Of a stretch of 64,000 nt of DNA, positions 5,620-56,664 are shown one piece after another (position 1 is the stretch's first letter; every line of letters begins with the position of its first letter). The stretch spans positions 1,488,001 through 1,552,000 of the forward strand of contig JAOVFP010000015.1 of the NCBI GenBank assembly GCA_025738555.1, given 5' to 3'. This DNA comes from Cyathus striatus. Taxonomy: Eukaryota; Basidiomycota; Agaricomycetes; Agaricales; Nidulariaceae. The notes under the pieces were generated by a model. It searched no databases and was not told the origin of the DNA. It saw nothing but the letters and a program-made list of their open reading frames with translations. A program made the position numbers and the translations under genes.

Positions 5620-8306
5620 CTAGAGTGAAATAGTATTTATAATTGACTGCACATGACATGTTTTAGCGGGGCATGAATTATTGGTAGAGCAATAATATAA
5701 AGAGTAATCAGTCAACTTTTTCTCAGTCGCATGCCGTGCTTTTAAAAATGCTTTCCGCCATGCATCAATGGTACTTTCAGGAGGATCTGGTAAATTCTAC
5801 AGCCATTCGGTCAGATGCTACCAATGACACTGGTAAACTGAATAATACCTTTAGCCAAGCTAATAAGTATTCTTCTGCTTCATGCGAAAGCAGTGTGTTG
5901 AGAAAAATATCGTCATGGAAATTCTGAGCTGCAGAGTTCAGTGCCATTAAAAGCGCAGGAGTTGTTCTTTGGTTTCGATCCAGCAAGGACTTGGCCCACA
6001 TCTTCAATGTGCGAACCCTGTAAAATATATTCTGATCTGAATACTTAGATGCTACTGAAATTTTAATTATGGTAATGCATGCATCAGCATAGTCATCCGA
6101 TGTGCAATGGAAAGTGCCAGAAAACTGATGAGAAGACAAAAATATTCTGAAGTCAATCTGATAGTCTGTGCCACATAAAATATCAATATTGGACATCATG
6201 TCACCGAACGATGTGCGACCATGAATAGTTTCCATCATATTGTATAGATGTAGTTCAGATAATTGTTCCAATGGGATGATGGCATGTAAAGCGAGCAATC
6301 GCTTTACACAAGCGTCATCGTTATATTCTTTTAAATGCCCAAGCCAAAGGGGAAATATAATCAATGTGCGAAAATGATCCATGTCAATGTGCCGATAATT
6401 CTAACGAAAAGAAGTTTCAAAATCAATTAACTGCTCAATAAAGATGGGATTACTTACCTTAGGATGTCGAAGCCATAAATAATTCATGGACTGAAGGACT
6501 TCTGAAGATGGAGAGCGGTCGTTTATAAGGGCTTCAGTAAAATTTATGGTTTGCCAGGCTTGGTCACTATTCCGGGTCCTAAGACCGAGGATGTTGATAG
6601 CTTCTTGAAGATGCATGTAATTATTATATTGTTGGGAGAACATCTTTAAAGGTTGAATAAAATCAGGAATTTCCACAAGTTCATTGCTTTTGCCAATGTG
6701 TTTGCGCCAGCAAAAAAAAGCATAGAACCAACCAACTGCAAGTCATTAGTACTTACATTTTCTGGAAAATATGTTTACATACCATGCTGTTCTACTGTTT
6801 CATATGTGAGGTGAGTTAGGAAATATAGACAGGACTGAGCAACATCTGCATGAGTTACTTTGAGATCTACATGGAAGTCTTTTGATCGCTCCTTTGTGGT
6901 TAAAAAGTCATGGAATGACTTGTGGTGAAACTTAAACTCAGAGTAATCACTGTAAGACTCAGATCCTATGTTTAGATCAATGAGAGAATGAAGGTTATTT
7001 AATGCAAAAAATGCTTCTCCTGGTGGGATCAATAATAGCTGTTCCACAACAAGAAACAATACATTTTGATTGCATTTCACTGCCATTATAATAGGATTTG
7101 ATAAATCATCTTGACCAGAATATGATTTAACATCCAATATGGCAAGTATATATCCCAATACTTTCACAGTTCTTTCAGGTTTCTCCACTCTGGACAGTAT
7201 CTCATGGTAAAGGAGGTCAAGGTCTGCAAGAGGGGAGCTATTACTGTCATCTCGGATTCCAAGTACAATTTCAAGTTGTGCATTAGGATTGTGGTGGGGA
7301 CTAGAAATAAATTTCATTACTGTCACTGCATAAATGAACTGCCTTGAAGATCGCTCAACGAGTTTCTCTATGCTGTATAGGGGTGGCCAAGGCCGACGAA
7401 CAAATTTGAGAGCTGCTTTGAATCGGCGATCATTCAAAATACGGGAAAATCCACTCTCAAGCACGGTTTTAATATCCTGTGAGACTTCTTGAATGCTGGA
7501 CAGGGAGATATGATTTGTCACAGAAACAATCTCCTTTGTATCCCAGATTTCTTGAAGATAAAGTTCTGGTCGACTCGTAATGAAAAATCCCAATGGAAAA
7601 CTCTCATGTCGCGCAGCCTTAGCTAACAGGCGCAAGACCGATACTTGCGTGGCTGTATTAACACATTCATCCAGTCCGTCAATAACTATAATCCAATTCC
7701 GGAGTTGTCGACCGGATTCTACGAAGCAGAGACAGGGCTCAAGAATAAGGTGTTGGAATTGACGCTCAATAGATGTATCATAAATGAGCCGAGGATCTAG
7801 GCCTATCTCTGATGAAATGTAACCCGCAAGCACATTGTTCAGCATCGCTAGTTGATATGCTATGGTAGTGAAGAGTTTCTTCACATTATTTCGATCTTGT
7901 GATCCTCTCCAGAAAAAAAAGCTGCCACCTAGGGATCCTGCATAATCGGCCTCCTCGCAAACAGATCTTGCGATACATGACTTTCCAGCCCCCGCGGGCC
8001 CGTGTAGATATGTTATAGCGGTTTCTTTGTCGGGCTCTCTAATCCACTGATTGATATCGCTGAGAAGTTGTTTACGAGTTTTTGGGTGACATTTTGGGGC
8101 ATCATACTGCTCTCCTGAGTCATGAGTTGCGCCCATCGCAACAAATTGCGAAAGGTATTGGAGTGCTAGTGCAACAAGTAAGTGTGCCATGAAGACTTAT
8201 AGCAGCGAGTATTGACTATCGCACCGTCTCTCCCATTATTTATATGATTATCCACGAACGTTGCTTCGTTTATGACGAAATTCGATGCATTTGGGAAATA
8301 TGACAT
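5620..8306 (-). CDS. NACHT P-loop NTPase (NLR-like STAND protein) A, intact, 5 exons
   Basis: Predicted NTP-driven signalling switch of the fungal NLR-like class, probably cytosolic. Exons by hand: 8225-8306, 6783-8165, 6458-6735, 5849-6400 and 5620-5796, giving 2,472 nt and 823 residues with consistent phases. The start MSYFPNASNF was chosen because the same N-terminus recurs in copies C-F. Walker A GPAGAGKS is at residues 83-90, Walker B IIVIDGLDEC at 186-195 and FITSRPE at about 222-228. The NACHT exon ends in HHKSFHDFL, a usual end motif in agaricomycete relatives. About 350 further residues follow with no WD40, ankyrin or TPR repeats that I can see, ending in a cysteine motif (C-x5-C-x4-C). 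There is no long N-terminal effector domain, only about 28 residues ahead of the conserved linker. A TATA-like site lies about 55 bp upstream. Substrate and partner are unknown. Homologous exon sizes in B support the model. Confidence 0.88.
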
Positions 8307-8838: not shown

Positions 8839-9138
8839 CGCTCCGAACTCATGTTCACTGGCGCGTTTCCGCTTCTATGGGGTAGGGTATCTTTTCTGAG
8901 CCTTCGAATATGTCAGAGATCTCTGTTAGTTGGAGATCGGATATGAGGCCACGTTGCAAGCCTGTCGCATGCTAGCCACTCAAGGTCACAGGATAGATAA
9001 GGATACCCTGGTTATTTTTTATAATCGAGTGGGGATAAACAGGGATGAGAAAGCACGAGGAATAAATATGTTCGTATTTCGTTGTCGACGAGACGTAAGT
9101 GTATTTAGTTGAATCGAATTGACCGAATCTAAATAGAG

Positions 9139-9640
9139 GGGCACGTAGTTTTTACCGTGCACGCACAAAAGTGAGCGTGGCTGAGCGTGCCACGCTCAAG
9201 GCCAAATTTTCACGCTCAATAGGTGAGCGTGTCACGCTCAAGGTACATATAATAGTTGTAAAAGGCTTATTAGAGAGTCAAAAATATGTAAAATAAGTGT
9301 GTGTACTGGTTATTATACTACTGTAGTCTTATGGTCACCATGAGTAAGGTTTTTAAGAAAGATAAATTGTCAGATGTCAAAAAATGACATGTACATTTCA
9401 CGCTCAAATGTGAACGTGCACGCTCACTTTTCACGCTCAAGGTATGAGCGTGCACGCTCATATCACGCACAAGATTTCATTTCACGCACAGGGTCGAAGG
9501 TTCACGCACAGGGTCTATACCTTCACGCACAGGGTCTAAATTTGCACGCTCAAGGTCCATTTTATCACGCTCAAGGTTTATTAATTCACGCTCAAGGGTT
9601 TTGACATCACGCTCACAGGATTCATTATATTTAATGCTAC
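9139..9640. repeat. Left subterminal repeat array of the MULE
   Basis: Many copies of an 8-9 base motif, CACGCTCA or CACGCACA and its complement, spaced roughly 10-40 bp apart; the densest parts are 9155-9245 and 9400-9620. They are interspersed with AT-rich sequence. The right end of the element has the same motifs. Plausible transposase-binding sites by analogy with other MULEs. Apparent open frames here are by-products of the repetition. Confidence 0.8.
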
Positions 9641-10136
9641 ATATATATTGTAGCATTACTGTGAACGTGAATATGTATTCACGTTCACACATATTTGCTT
9701 AAATACCAAGTGTGATAGGCGTGTGCGTGAATATATATTTCGCTCAGGTTTAACTAATATAAATTGTACTTGAGAGTCACAACGTAGAAATTATCCCCTA
9801 TATGGCCCTTGAAGAGCTGGACTCGAGCTGGCTTTCATAGATTGTTTTTATACTTAATCTTACTTGTATGGATGCAACACGAAGGCCTTCTGCACGATGT
9901 AATATATCTATAATTAGGTAAAGCTAAACTTATGTTAGATCATCCGATCAAAGGTGTGTGTGATGGCCATGATACCTGCCTTAGCAGGTGGAACGATTTA
10001 ATGATAAGAGGTTCTGTACAAATCTGATGAATAATTTCGGATCTGTGGCATATACAAGCCATTAAAAATCGTTGGATGAACATGTTTTGCTTCATTTTAA
10101 ACTGATATCAGATAGATATCGACATGGTCCATGCTC

Positions 10137-10145
10137 TATATATAA
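10137..10145 (+). promoter_or_regulatory. Probable TATA box of the MULE gene
   Basis: TATATATAA stands 80 bp before the proposed start codon at 10225, in otherwise non-repetitive sequence between the subterminal array and the gene. Confidence 0.45.
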
Positions 10146-10224
10146 CAGAGTGCTTTTTGAGATCGTCATTATACACTCTGCCCTCACACATCAAGTTTTC
10201 ACCCACATCAAACAACAACTTAAA

Positions 10225-13200
10225 ATGGTTCTGGTGAGTCATATGTATATTTCTGTTCTAGAGATTTATATTCTAATAACAAATAAAGGGATTCTTCAAG
10301 CATATGTATGCTTACTTTGTGCCAGCTCAGAAGAGAAAGCGCTCGGGTTCACAAGGTACCAGAAGTTCAAGTGAGATTGAGCATTTACCATCCAAAAAGA
10401 AGCGGTTGGATGTACTGGATGATTTAACTGGTGATTATATGTTATTATATGATAAAGTAATCAGTCAATAACACTTAAATTACAGCAACAGGAAAGAAGA
10501 AAATTAAGAATACTAAACCTAAGCATTATCTGAAAGCCTCTAAACGAGACCAGGAAGATAGTGATTCAATGTCTGAAACTGAGCTATATGAGTTGCTTCT
10601 TGCTGCAAAGAAAAAAAAGGCCAATCTCAGGAAGGAATTGGCTGATAGTAGCAAAACTGTGAAAGAATTATATGAGTGTACAGCAGATGGAAAATTTGTT
10701 CTTTGCACTTCTGCTTCTAGTGCAGCTGATACTCCTATGGATATCAATGATAGTAATGACACTATTAATATTGAAGATCTGAGATCTTGGGATGGCTGGC
10801 CTGATGGTGACTGGGAAGCCAACTATACTAATGAGTTTGTTGATGCCACAAATAATCTGCATGTACACTGGGCTACAAGATTAAATGGTGGGTATGGAGG
10901 TAGTGCAAAATCAAAACTGTGGAGTAATGGAAAATGTGCTGTGAAAAAGTGTCTGGGTGTTATCAAATGTGATAATAATGATTGTAAAATAAGAACATGC
11001 CCCAAGACAAGAATGTCTGCTCTTACCAAACAACTTAAAGAACCATGTGCTTGTGGTGCTAAAAAAATACATATTGAATGTGGTGTAAATTCTAAAACAT
11101 ATACATGGTCTGGAGGTGTTCATTATGTTAATGGTGGATTTCATACCCATGATAGACCAGGAAACATTCTCTCATTACTACCATATGAATTGGAAGATCT
11201 TGGAGATGTTGTTGAAGAACATCCTAATGCAGGACCATTACAGCTTGTTGTTGGAGTTAGGGGAACTAATGGTCTCCCAGGGAAATCTGTTGCACTTATA
11301 TCAAAGGCTTTAATCAATGCTGATCGAGTAGGATATGAGTGACAAAAAATAATTGGACAGACAGAAAATGCTGATGATTTTGTAAAGAATTTTGCAAGAT
11401 TTCAAGAGGAACACCCTGGATTTATTATATTTGAACAGTTTGGCAAAGTTACAGTTATCTCAGTGCAATCTTCATTTATGGCATCACAGCTCATTAAAGA
11501 TAAGGTAATTGATGGTCCTCTAAATGGTCTTGTTAGTGATGCAGCCCATGGATGGTGGAAAGACCATAAATCCCTGCTTATTGTCTCTTCTGTATATTCT
11601 CCTGAGCTTAGGCGATGGGTTCCAGGCATTTTCTCATATAGTAATGGAGCATCAGCAAGTCATTATGAGCTACACTTCAGTGCACTATTATATAGTATGG
11701 AGGAGCAGCTTGAAAGAAGGGACATTGAAATTACTGATTCACTATTCTCAGGTGTAAGTATTTCATCTACAATGACTACATTACTTGACTAATTAAATAT
11801 TAAAATTAGGTAATGGATTTTAGTGAAGCAGAGCATAAAGGATTTGTTGAAGCATTAGTTAAGTTTTATATTTGACGGAATGATTCTAGATCAGAGGAGG
11901 TTCTTCATGAGATGGCTACAAATTCACTTTGGGGATGTCAAGAGCATTTTCGTGCTTCCCTTACAAGGGTAAAAAGAAATCATGGAGTTATTAGTCCAGA
12001 TAAAGCAGATATATTTGAGTCACGAGTTTTATCAGCTCTTAGAACAAACAATGCTGTTAAGTTCAAGGAAGAAATATGAATTATTATTCGTGACTTCCCA
12101 TTGGCAGAACTATGGATTAATTGGTATCTTCGAGATAGCATAGCAAAAATGCTATTTACGTCACAAAAACGAATGCATCCAGACATATGGGACTCTATAC
12201 CATCTACTACAAATGCAGAAGAGGCAATGCATTGGAAGTTATACAGTGCTGGAGGTAAAGACCATGGCCTTCTTGATGGACTTCATGGATTGTTTGCAGT
12301 TGCAAAGTATTATGAGAGAATTTATGAGGCTGCTTCACAGGGAACATTAATACAATATGGAAGACCTGAGCCTTGGAAAGCAAATATAGAGAAGTATGGT
12401 AGAACAAAGCCATCAAGAGATCCAAGAAGAAGTCGCTCAAAGAAAAAGAATGATGGAAGACCACCAGATACATCTGCAGAGTTAATTCCTAAGCCTAATA
12501 AACATAGTAAAAAATCAAAGAAGCAATCAAAAACTTCTAAGACTATAGCTACAACTGAGAAAGAAGTACTGAAGGAGGAAAAAACAGTACCAAATCAAGT
12601 GGTTGAAAATCAAGATTCTATGGATTGTGAAAGCATGAGAACTCCAAGCTTTAAGTGGGGAAGCAATTCCTGTTGGCTTGATGTATCATTACAGCTACTG
12701 TTCACTGCTCTTAAACAATGTGAGAGTGATTTTCATACAGCTTGTAATGGCAATACCTCCAAAAGTGAAACACCAGCATTCTATGAACTGGTACAATTAT
12801 TCAATAATTGGTTGGATGTTCAAACTAATCCTGAAGGAGAGTCCTCTGTTAAGAAATTATCATCACAACGTGATAAATTCCGAAGCTATTTAATAAAAAA
12901 TAGACTATGCTATGTTGATGAATATGGATGTAGTGATACATGGGTAAGCAGTCCTAGTTTTCTTATTTTTTTGTTTTCTGATCTTCTCATCTATATAAAA
13001 GGGCTGGCTATATTCAATTGTATCAAAAGAAAGTACTGATGAAGAATATCTTGCACATGCATATTTTGAGCAACTTGAGGCTCAGTTTAATATTTGTGAA
13101 GGCTGTGAATCTACAGGTGGTCGTCATATGCAAATTCGGAAAACACCTCGGAGTCAGAAGTATCATGACCTTAGGGATAGTGATACTGAATCTTGTTTTG

Positions 13201-15521
13201 GTCGTGCTGAATTATGGCTCAGACATCAGTCACAAAATCATAATAATAATCCTTCTAGAACAACAAATTCTTGCTGGCGAGTTTGTGAAGGAGAAGTCTT
13301 ATGCTCAGGAACTCAAAATGAAACATATAATATCTGGTTAACACTGCCTGTAATTTTTATTCTAAATGTTGGAGAAAATGTCTCCACAGAATCTGAGCAA
13401 ATGTGGACATTTCCAAGGGAGCTCAGACCATGTACAGTACAAGAAAAAAATAGTGGAATGATTTATGATATTGTTGGACGTGTATTCCATTCAAAATCCA
13501 AAAATCATTTTGTTACACGCTATGAAACATCTGAAGGCATATATCACTATGATGGACTGACAGCTAGTTATGGCATTCCACTTGATATTGATTCTAGTCA
13601 AAGTATCCTACATGGATGGAATATTCAAAACCCTCCAGGTGGTTATAAAACATCTTCTGTTGTTTACTGTCTTAGGGGTGGTCTATCATCTCAGAAGCAG
13701 TTTTTTAAGAAGCAAACCAAAATTTTAAGTTCTCAATATGGTATCCAAATGTCTGGTTTAAATACAATTTCTACTGCACCAATATTGTCATACAGAAAAT
13801 CAGATCTGATAATGATGACTCCAAATGATAGAGTATGGCTTCGTGATCCTTTAAATGCAAAAACAGTTGAATATATAACATATCAAGCCAAGAATAGTGA
13901 GGGTGAATTATCATCTGATAGTCAAAGTCAGTTACAAGTGCTTGCAAAGCCTAAGAAGAAGGTGACCATTTGTATACCAGAATCATCGGCATCTGAAAAG
14001 GAATTTGAAAACTTGATAAGTTCTCAAAAACAGAAACAGAGTGCTCCATTCAAATGTCGATGTGGAAAGAAAGACAATATTATGGATGAAGAGGGATCTA
14101 CATTGATACAATGCAACCGATGTAAATGTTTTATGCATGTGGCATGCCAAAGACATGGAAGGGCATCAGATCTATCAAAGAAGGCAAAATATACCTGTGA
14201 TATATGTTTATATCCAAAGGCTTCTCTTTCCTTCTCACCATTCCAATACCCAAGGTATATTTTTTTATAATAAATATGCACTGCCTTTTCTAATATTGCT
14301 AATAGTCCTTGAATCAGCCGGGGGTTTTCTCAAAAGCCACTTAGCAAGCGGTTAATGTATGTGAATCACTACTATGTAAATTGTTAGAGATGTATCTGAA
14401 CATTTTATAGGTCAGGAAAAGGAGCTCTAGCTCGGTTGGATAAGTTCTGGTATCCAGTGCGATTAATTATAGCAAATGAAGATCAATGGAGAGTCAAATT
14501 CTGGAGAGAATGCTGCTTTTTACCTAACATGGAACCAGATTCACTTTTGGTTTGGATTGACAAGCAAGACATAGTTGATGAACTGTGGGAAGATTTAAAG
14601 GGTCGAAGGAATATTCAGGTATGATTCAGCTAGATACATGTATCTTTTCATACTTACTATATTCTAGCTTGGAGAATGGACACATGCACATGAAGTTTGT
14701 ACAGAAGAAGATATTATAGTAGAGTTCCAGAAGATACCTATCACTCAGGAAACTATCAAGATCTTAACACCACATATTCAAATTTTGAAAGCATTGTTAA
14801 CTATAGATCCTTTTGACCAAAGTATTGAAGAACACAATAATGTACCAGCTCTTCAATTTGTCCGAAATATGTCTAAAACAAAGAATCCAATACACAAGTA
14901 CATACCTGCTGGGACAGTTCCATACTCTGGTGACTTGACACCTCTGGAAAGAGGAGAGATTGCACATTGGTTTTCAGTCAATGTCCCAGGTGCAAGTGAT
15001 ATACCAACTCATAAATGGTTTGGAACAGCACCTCTGGCCCATGCATACACTATCTTTATTGCATCCACAAGAGACAGCCTTATTCAAAGCAGTGATAGTA
15101 TCAATACATTGGAAGCAGCATGGAAATATCAAATTGAAAATATATGGGTAAAGGGACAGACAACTGATGTAGACAGAGAATGCCTCAGTCACTTTGAAAG
15201 AAGAATGTTTGAGAGGTCAGTCCGAGCTGGAAGGGCTGGAAATTATGTATGGGGTCTTGATGTTGGTCCTACACAAAATAAATGGGATCCATATGATGGT
15301 CTTCCAGAAACCTGGTTTGACACCAATGTAAATGGACATGATAGTGACTTAGAGGTGAGTAATTGTGCCATTACATTAGTATTAGTGGGTAATTGAAACA
15401 TTTATAGTTTGGAGAGAATTACAGAGACTCAGAGACACCAACCATTGACTCTCCAAAGCCACTAAAACCCAAGCCAAAACCAAGACCTGTAACAAAAGGA
15501 TGGGTTTGGTTAGAGGAGTAA
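10225..15521 (+). pseudogene. MULE transposase fused to USP-type deubiquitinase and PHD finger (8 exons, three in-frame TGA)
   Basis: Exons by hand: 10225-10233, 10289-10430, 10486-11753, 11810-12943, 13002-14254, 14411-14618, 14668-15354 and 15408-15521. All phases agree, giving 1,604 sense codons apart from TGA at 11340, 11873 and 12077. In order: basic N-terminus (QKRKR, PSKKKR); a GCM/WRKY-type zinc finger at residues about 201-272 (CLGVIKC through FHTH); a MULE DDE core with candidate Asp in VSDAAHG (about 402) and in VMDFSEAE (476), then WGCQEHF (about 515); a USP Cys box SNSCWLDVSLQLLF (Cys about 761) and His box KNHFVTRY (His about 1020) with YHYDG; a C4HC3 PHD finger at about 1200-1256; and a roughly 330-residue C-terminus of unknown role ending KGWVWLEE. 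The transposase and protease assignments rest on motif layout. The stops imply a dead or recently dead gene; CGA-to-TGA change fits at least two of them. Confidence 0.8.
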
Positions 15522-15599
15522 GTACTGCAGTAGACATATACAAACTTCAGTGTAGGTTTGAAATTGTAATTATATTTACATTCTGAATAATATTTATTA

Positions 15600-17240
15600 C
15601 CCCACACATATTTCCATTTGAACATGTGTCATACTCAAGTCATACTCGCACTCAGACTGATATATCATGCTAAAACTCAAATTTATACTATTAACACTCA
15701 ATTTAAACCTGGCCTAAGTATTCATGCTCATGCTCACAGTCAAACTCACTTAATTGAGTGTGAGCATGAACACACCCACCCCACGCTCATGCACAAACAC
15801 AGTTTCATTGAGAGTGAGTGTGATAAGTCAAATTAAAAGGACATACTAAGTACACATGAGCGTGAATACAGATTAGTATATATATTCTCACACTCACATA
15901 TATTTACTATAGAGTCAGCATGATAGGTAATACCTATCACGCTCATGCTCAAATTAATATATATATTCACGCTCACATATATTTACTGTAGAGTGAGCGT
16001 GATAGGTATTACTTATCACGCTCATGCTCAAATTATAACACCATGCTAAGTATGCGTGAGCTGTGAATACAGATTAGAATATACATTCATGCTCACACAT
16101 ATTTACTTTAGAGTGAGTGTGAATTTGAGCATGAGCGTGATAGGTAATACCTATCATGCTCACGCTCAAATTAATATATATATTCATGCTCACATATATT
16201 TACTGTAGAGTGAGCGTGATAGGGTATTACATATCACGCTCACGCTCAAATTATAACACCATACTAAGTATACATGAGTTGTGAATACAGATTAGAATAT
16301 ACATTCATGCTCACACATATTTACTATAGAGTGAGCATGAATTTGAGTGTGAGCGTGATAGGTAATACCTATCACGCTCACACTTAAATTATAACACCAT
16401 ACTAAGTACACATGAGCTGTGAATAAAGATTAGAATATACATTTACACTCACACTCAAATTAATTTATATATTCATGCTCACATATATTTACTGTAAAGT
16501 GAGTGTGAATTTGAGCGTGAGTGTGATAGGTATTACCTATCACGCTCACGCTCAAATTACAAGGACACACTAAGTACACATGAGCGTGAATACTGATTAG
16601 AATATACATTCACACTCACACATATTTACTATAGAGTGAGTGTGAATTTGAGCGTGAGCATGATAGGTATTACCTATCACGCTCACGCTCAAATTAATAT
16701 ATATATTCACACTCACATATATTTACTGTAGAGTGAGTGTGATAGGTAATACCTATCACGCTCACGCTCAAATTACAAGGATACACTAAGTACACATGAG
16801 CATGAATAAAGATTAGTATATATGTTCACGCTCACTCTATAGTAAATATGTGTGAGCGTGATAGGTATTACTTATCACGCTCACGCTCACATATATTTAC
16901 TGTAGAGTGAGCGTGGATGTAAAATACATATTTATGATTCATGTTCATGCTCAATCTAATTGAGTTTGAGTGTGAGCGTGATGGATATTACCATTCACAC
17001 TCATGGACACTCATACCAACTATTAATGTGAGAGTGGATAATTATATTTACACCTTTTTAAGACAATACAATACAGGAATATGTCAACTTATAAGAAATT
17101 ATCTTCACGCTCATTTAGGATTTCTTCACGCTCAAGTGTAGGATATTCACGCTCACATATAAGATCTTCACGCACAGGGTCGATATTCCACGCTCACCTA
17201 TTGAGCGTGGAATATCGACCCTGAGCGTGCACGGAATTTT
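15600..17240. repeat. Right subterminal palindromic repeat array of the MULE
   Basis: About 1.6 kb of degenerate tandem units. Each combines the perfect palindrome GATAGGTAATACCTATC, or its GTATTAC variant, with runs of CACGCTCACGCTCA and its complement, an AT-rich spacer like TATATATATTCACGCTC, and ACATATATTTACTGTAGAG. Units recur at irregular intervals near 15.92, 16.14, 16.36, 16.52, 16.66, 16.74 and 16.86 kb. The array ends in a long hairpin (about 17170-17215) with arms around GGTCGATATTCCACGCTCA. No protein-coding signal. Confidence 0.85.
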
Positions 17241-17261
17241 CTGCCTGCCCTAAATAGAGAT

Positions 17262-56446: not shown

Positions 56447-56664
56447 TGTTGGATTGGCAAGGTTGACAGCCTTGACTGGGTTATGGGGGTGTATATATAT
56501 TGGAGCACCCCTGCCATGGTGACAAGCCTGGTAGCCCACTCAACTGGTTAAGTACCTGTTCTTGCTTGTGTATAGGCAAGGGCTGGTAGCTCAGTTGGAA
56601 GAGCACCTAGTCATGAGTATGGGTGGTCACAGGTTCAATCCCTGTCCAGTCCAATAGTTTTAAC
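56447..56664 (+). mobile_element. Insert with tandem tRNA-like sequences (SINE-like)
   Basis: It interrupts the NACHT F P-loop codons between TTTTCC (56441-56446) and ATTTCC (56665-56670), perhaps a short duplicated target. It contains a tRNA-like unit at 56580-56652 and an earlier half-unit (CCTGGTAGCCCACTCAACTG, from about 56526). Roughly 218 bp; CpG-free like the surrounding copy, so it is old. Confidence 0.5.
56580..56652 (+). tRNA. tRNA-like sequence, degenerate anticodon stem (probable pseudogene)
   Basis: 73 nt. The acceptor stem GGGCTGG/CCAGTCC is fully paired with one G-U. D stem GCTC/GAGC with loop AGTTGGAA is good, and T arm ACAGG-TTCAATC-CCTGT is perfect. The anticodon stem CCTAG/TATGG pairs only partly and the loop lacks T at position 33, so the identity cannot be read (a CAT lies in the loop). 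Internal promoter boxes A and B look usable. It lies inside a SINE-like insert in a dead gene, so a working tRNA is unlikely. Confidence 0.5.

Follow-up and report, generated by a model that had tools for sequence, protein, structure and literature searches.

The 64,000-nt stretch of Cyathus striatus DNA analyzed here (contig JAOVFP010000015.1, positions 1,488,001 to 1,552,000 of the forward strand; hereafter the window) carries an eight-exon gene within a mobile element of 8,112 bp that spans 9139-17250, wider than the coordinates first given (10225..15521). Along the chain encoded by this gene, a GCM-type DNA-binding domain comes first, then a DDE transposase core that holds a helical insert, then a cysteine isopeptidase of USP fold (Cys-His-Asp) and a PHD finger; two conserved domains make up the C-terminal end. 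The features of the element are the following (window positions, with their basis in brackets).

9130..9138, unstranded: left 9-bp target-site duplication TAAATAGAG (identical to 17251-17259)
9139..9164, + strand: left terminal inverted repeat (TIR) GGGCACGTAG...CCGTGCACGC (matches 17225-17250, read in reverse complement, at 19/26 positions)
9165..9950, unstranded: left subterminal array of TGAGCGTG/CACGCTCA repeats (tandem arrays; motif count)
10225..10233, + strand: exon 1, start codon (splice model, GT donor)
10289..10430, + strand: exon 2 (splice model)
10486..11753, + strand: exon 3, GCM-type DNA-binding domain and start of the DDE core with the first Asp, VSDAAHGWWK (splice model; fold of homolog P0004)
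11340-11342, + strand: in-frame TGA (exon 3)
11810..12943, + strand: exon 4, second Asp (VMDFSEAE), helical insert, Glu (STTNAEEAMHW), basic linker, and protease Cys box (splice model; homolog fold)
11873-11875, + strand: in-frame TGA (exon 4)
12077-12079, + strand: in-frame TGA (exon 4)
12671-12673, + strand: Cys codon of the protease Cys box NSCWLDVSLQLLF (exon 4)
13002..14254, + strand: exon 5, remainder of the USP-fold protease and PHD finger (splice model, protease model, PHD alignment)
13506-13508, + strand: protease His, box NHFVTRY (exon 5)
13551-13553, + strand: protease Asp (exon 5)
13671-13682, + strand: LRGG ending the last strand of the protease (exon 5)
14055-14207, + strand: C4HC3 PHD finger (exon 5, codons checked)
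14411..14618, + strand: exon 6, conserved GKGALARL..FWYPVRLI domain adjoining the PHD finger (no PDB sequence match at E≤1)
14668..15354, + strand: exon 7, conserved C-terminal domain (50 matched rows in the genome)
15408..15521, + strand: exon 8 and stop codon (splice model)
15640..17224, unstranded: right subterminal array, TGAGCGTG-type, minisatellite-like (tandem arrays; motif count)
17225..17250, - strand: right TIR (pairs with the left TIR)
17251..17259, unstranded: right 9-bp target-site duplication TAAATAGAG (identical to the left copy)

Rebuilding the splice model reproduced the eight exons with agreeing phases and 1,604 codons proposed in an earlier note on this DNA, with GT..AG borders and a TAA stop, and the GCM-type domain, DDE-like motifs, Cys box NSCWLDVSLQLLF, His box, and PHD finger listed there were all found in the window chain. 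The same note placed all parts on one chain, which holds for the domain order and the phases but not for the window copy as a working gene, since the three in-frame TGA codons mean that this copy is decayed and cannot make the full chain as it stands. Of the 65 stop codons met when the genome was searched with the protease exon, 59 are TGA; the expectation from single changes to a stop-free copy is TGA in 54 of 196 cases. The CpG observed/expected ratio is 0.20 in the gene versus 0.80 outside the element. From the TGA excess and the low CpG of the gene, we infer cytosine methylation and deamination of the copies. The GKGALARL..WYPVRLI domain occupies about 14411-14700 of the window and is followed by a C-terminal domain of 230 aa (14668-15354); a search of the former against PDB sequences returned no match at E≤1.

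The ends of the element point to its class. The 26-bp TIRs, identical at 19 of 26 positions, are flanked by an exact 9-bp target-site duplication, within the ~8-11 bp that characterize Mutator and Mutator-like elements (MULEs). A degenerate pattern of the TIR hit 244 sites at ≤2 mismatches in the 107-Mb genome, and the reversed control none. Of ten inverted TIR pairs whose flanks were compared, 1.4-3.9 kb apart, four have an exact 9-bp duplication; being shorter than the window element, these pairs show that shorter, presumably non-autonomous relatives exist. The TGAGCGTG motif occurs 15 times in 9139-9950, 34 times in 15522-17250, never in the gene, and twice elsewhere in the window. Accordingly, 49 of its 51 occurrences fall in the two flanks, where they are likely candidate binding sites of the transposase. 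In the structure model of homolog P0004, a Mycena protein, a GCM fold (a zinc domain of the WRKY-GCM1 class) precedes a DDE core of RNase H type, which holds a helical insert and is related to IS256/MuDR transposases. Such a zinc domain ahead of the DDE core is common in MULEs, though not universal.

Searches of the same genome retrieved many further copies. With the protease/PHD exon as query there were 68 matches, of which five are 88-100% identical and the others 30-56%; the N- and C-terminal exons gave 54 and 50 rows, respectively. At 35 of 43 protease anchor rows the match is collinear with both N- and C-terminal exon matches. Ten of these 35 anchors are free of stops in the three matched stretches, which is weaker than being intact, since the window copy is counted among the ten although its stops fall between the stretches. 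Two other copies, L034 (1,659 aa) and L033 (1,514 aa), were re-spliced over six core exons with zero stops. Together with the window copy they represent three subfamilies, about one third identical in the protease exon, that share four intron positions in the compared stretch, one inside the protease domain. The order kept at 35 of 43 anchors and the four common introns make the three-part chain more than a chance arrangement. L034 and L055, on different contigs, are 97.5% identical over 8.6 kb, which suggests recent movement. On contig C8 of this genome (G000), the N-terminal part of a close copy and a protease part stand ~10 kb apart in opposite orientation (583184-584038, + strand, and 592689-595040, - strand), perhaps through an inversion.

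Relatives were also recovered from other mushrooms. The protease/PHD region of L034 retrieved six proteins, from Suillus clintonianus, three Mycena species (four proteins), and Tricholomella constricta. A profile of those six retrieved 19 proteins, four of them already found, adding Hygrophoropsis and further Mycena, while a protease profile retrieved 11, the best two from Cyathus striatus itself. These public entries bear no precomputed Pfam domain and, where they have a name, are called hypothetical or uncharacterized, except for one 'GCM domain-containing' and one 'Zinc finger PHD-type' protein. In several of the 32 proteins tabulated by motif, e.g. Mycena P0002, P0004, and P0007, the parts stand in one chain. 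Three Mycena proteins (P0016, P0019, and P0021) form a second, more distant lineage, with LV/LD/LE-GG at the protease end and a different C-terminal part.

Structure comparison assigned the protease region a right-hand USP fold, with the Cys starting helix 1 and the His and Asp on later strands. The best 50 fold matches are nearly all ubiquitin USPs (USP12, USP46, USP7, USP1). Protease profiles built from 7 (A1) and 9 (A7) sequences found no USP among PDB sequences, so the USP likeness comes from structure comparison. Across 20 public rows, the His is invariant, the catalytic Asp is present in 18 and replaced by Asn in 2, and the Cys occurs in every row whose gene model spans the box. In the same genome, 28 of 29 copies fit H-F..Y.YD, the exception having Asn for Asp; these copies were chosen by their Cys box, and hence Cys conservation cannot be counted among them. 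Asn at the catalytic Asp position is tolerated by USPs. As for the reader module, a Pfam scan of the X-masked window product, a check proposed in the earlier note, reported PHD_5 (E 0.0057) and PHD (E 0.033), both below cut-off, and neither MULE nor UCH at E≤1. Alignment of 11 PHD fingers, which except for P0016 were chosen by the C4HC3 pattern, revealed eight invariant zinc-ligand columns, and sequence kinship is to Bye1 (E 2.8e-7).

Collectively, these data indicate that the feature is probably a mushroom cut-and-paste DNA transposon of the Mutator/IS256 type, present here as a decayed copy, with a predicted single chain. Several observations weigh against this assignment. The window copy itself holds the three TGA codons described above. 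The transposase model is only moderate (predicted template-modelling score 0.58) and the DDE match remote; Pfam MULE (PF10551) matched neither the window product nor six homologs nor the genome, although a divergent member could escape it. Pfam UCH (PF00443) reached at best 15.5 bits against a cut-off of 23.9, with 1 of 26 members at E≤10, and the catalytic Asp is Asn in the two public rows already mentioned. Six of the ten other TIR pairs lack an exact duplication, and the identity between L034 and L055 reaches the ends of the fetched stretches, or nearly so, which is compatible with a segmental duplication. Element ends were located for the window's own subfamily only: the scan for duplications and TIRs yielded nothing for L031, L033, and L034 and, for L032, repeat-array pairs alone, and in the stop-free subfamily two copies align across nearly all of the fetched 9.5-9.8 kb, so that its ends lie beyond or went unrecognized.

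We then considered which tag the protease would remove. According to the available part of one study (PMC8983731), the residue after the catalytic His is always Tyr in ubiquitin USPs and always Phe in orthologs of USPL1 (peptidase C98), and USPL1 has a Tyr (Tyr451) where ubiquitin USPs have an upstream His. In the transposon protease, the residue after the catalytic His is Phe in all 20 public rows and in three rows from the same genome, that is, of the USPL1 type and not of the ubiquitin-USP type. As a control, we read by eye cellular USP pieces from 30 loci of the same genome; the nine distinct His boxes counted there are all GHY, eight with the upstream His visible. HF strings in this set lay in stop-bearing frames or had no flanking motif and were disregarded as noise. 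The Cys box is C[YF]xN in cellular USPs versus C[WY][LF]D in the transposon, and USPL1 likewise has CWLD at its catalytic Cys. At the position aligned with the upstream His, the 20 public rows carry F, Y, W, or L, in a register that is unsure because a His occurs one residue later in the window copy and two residues earlier in P0016, P0019, P0021, and L034. These sequence features depict the protease as a USP-fold isopeptidase whose presumed tag leans to SUMO. A bolder reading, rather less likely than not, is that of a USPL1-type SUMO isopeptidase kept in a Mutator-type transposase chain in Agaricomycetes, beside a histone-H3 reader. The protease resembles USPL1 in its USP fold and in the Phe directly after the catalytic His, as described in the same source (PMC8983731, in part), but USPL1, whose SUMO-contact residues are Arg324, Phe335, and Asn398, is a cellular protein, not a transposase, and has no significant sequence match to the transposon protease. 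We do not claim C98 membership, since Pfam Peptidase_C98 scored far below its cut-off (best 13.9 bits against 27; 2 of 26 members at E≤10, none genome-wide at E≤1).

The main competitor, an ordinary ubiquitin-specific deubiquitinase that shields the transposase from degradation or removes histone ubiquitin, is possible, if somewhat doubtful. It would explain why ubiquitin USPs make up nearly all of the best 50 folds, a list below which USPL1 (7P99), absent from it, may still rank, so that this absence is no test. Profile scores of the Cys-box piece divide between the two: that of L034 matches UCH at 0.013 and C98 at 0.044, whereas that of L033 matches C98 (0.14) and not UCH. The invariant Phe, judged by the residue rule of PMC8983731 as far as that text was available, and the uniform GHY of the genome's own cellular USPs both speak against an ordinary deubiquitinase. 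The USP-type deubiquitinase of the earlier note hence stands as regards the USP fold and the Cys-His-Asp residues, and is put in doubt by Phe for Tyr after the His and by the UCH score below cut-off; likewise, its idea of an element that edits ubiquitin while reading histone marks keeps the isopeptidase fold and the PHD finger in one chain, with the tag now leaning to SUMO.

That the protease is instead an inactive passenger of the transposase, either a captured piece of host sequence or a dead scaffold, is improbable. Transduplicated gene fragments have been reported in MULEs (PMC2528002, available in part). However, the His is kept in all 20 public rows, Asp or Asn in all 20, and the Cys wherever the box is covered; the H-F..Y.YD signature persists in all but one of the copies in the genome, and the protease sits at the same place in the chain wherever it is seen. 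Moreover, among 12 stop-free copies in three groups, the ratio of nonsynonymous to synonymous substitution rates (dN/dS) of the USP part was below 1 for 18 of the 19 pairs compared within groups; the remaining pair has a dS of 0.007. The PHD stretch is short, with a ratio above 1 in three pairs, and CpG decay adds noise throughout.

Slightly less credible still is a maturation enzyme that cuts its own chain after LxGG and so parts the transposase and reader halves. Coronavirus papain-like protease does cut at LXGG sites, the LRGG at the protease end resembles the ubiquitin tail LRLRGG, and YxLRGG is exact in 23 of 29 copies in the genome. LRGG itself is found in 13 of 19 alignable public rows, but the others read LRRG, LQGG, LEGG, LVGG, LDGG, and LEGG, and five of these lack the Arg (V, D, E, E, and Q stand in its place); all 19 have L and the final G. 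Residues 330-333 of the model, LxGG, form the end of the last USP strand and lead into a helix. The predicted local distance difference test score is 95 in the block on either side, as in a structured stretch rather than an exposed linker, and the USP matches end there. The variable Arg and this position between a confident strand and a helix weakened LRGG as a ubiquitin-tail cleavage site, and the motif reads as structural in the model.

Finally, an artefactual chain made of separate neighboring transposase and protease/PHD genes is very unlikely: some public models, including those from Suillus and Tricholomella, do lack the Cys-box exon or other parts, and L033 and L034 have one further intron between the two parts relative to the window copy (with a weak L033 donor, GTCATT, chosen for phase), but the intron phases are consistent in each of three subfamilies, window exon 4 carries both DDE Glu and Cys box with no splice site between them, and public models from Mycena and Hygrophoropsis (P0013, by sequence reading) join both parts.

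On the preferred reading of a transposase chain with a USP-fold isopeptidase, the GCM domain would bind the subterminal repeats (TGAGCGTG in the window copy) and the DDE core would cut and join the element ends, while the PHD finger and its neighboring domain could hold the complex on histone H3 tails. The transposase itself or chromatin proteins close by would then be the substrates of the isopeptidase, the tag being ubiquitin or, with slightly higher probability, a ubiquitin-like modifier (SUMO, for instance), and removal of the tag might protect the transpososome or ease silencing at donor or target sites.

Transposases with isopeptidases are already known. Ulp1 proteases occur in Mutator and CACTA elements (PMC2528002, available in part), which bears out the remark in the earlier note on Ulp1-type proteases in other MULEs. 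Ginger1 transposases carry OTU or Ulp1, once with PHD, and a figure legend assigns Ulp1 and PHD domains to Ginger1 and Mutator transposases (PMC2836005, available in part). The Ulp1-bearing Mutator-like elements of plants, hydra, and lancelet share with the mushroom element a Mutator-type transposase and a cysteine isopeptidase for ubiquitin-like tags, but theirs is of the Ulp1 family and not of the USP fold (nearest USP12/USP7). Ginger1-9_HM joins transposase, Ulp1 isopeptidase, and PHD in one chain, as told in the same part of PMC2836005; its transposase is of Gypsy-integrase type, unlike the GCM/IS256-like one here, and Ginger1 duplications are CCGG/CCGT-specific, which the 9-bp TAAATAGAG of the window element does not fit. 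Trichomonas vaginalis XP_001314237.1 does combine a DNA transposase (transposase_11) with a peptidase C19/USP, yet the transposase is of another family and that portion of the paper does not mention PHD (PMC2836005). Rehavkus, from arthropods and annelids, resembles the mushroom element by description in its PHD-bearing transposase, 9-bp duplication, and minisatellite near the 3' TIR, whereas arrays occupy both sides here; the available text on Rehavkus does not mention USP (PMC6446971). Helitron-borne VTD and OTU deubiquitinases are likewise ubiquitin-removing enzymes on mobile elements (PMC9741609), and TET/JBP-bearing fungal transposons carry enzymes that modify methylated DNA (PMC12730594), but, as far as these partly available sources go, both belong to other transposon classes with other enzyme folds. 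Among the matches listed in the open-licence PMC literature, available in part, there was no description of a Mutator-type family with USP fold and PHD or of a GCM/PHD fungal transposon.

The frequent presence in transposases of proteases that act on ubiquitin-like tags (Ulp1, OTU, VTD) calls for an explanation. A USP-fold protease joined to a transposase and a histone reader, in many copies that include stop-free ones and show strong CpG decay, offers a testable fungal system. If the protease is indeed a deSUMOylase, Mutator elements would have taken up SUMO proteases at least twice, from unrelated families (Ulp1 elsewhere, the USP fold here). Such convergence on one job would point to a SUMO-controlled step of transposition or silencing, and to SUMO removal at the transposition complex or silenced chromatin as a recurrent need of these elements.

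Elsewhere in the window, a scan with a bacterial setting placed a tRNA-Ser with a TGA anticodon at 56580-56653 (+ strand), and a neighboring frame at 6775-8193 (- strand) contains an NPHP3_N/NACHT NTPase domain (E 6.1e-25 and 1.6e-7).

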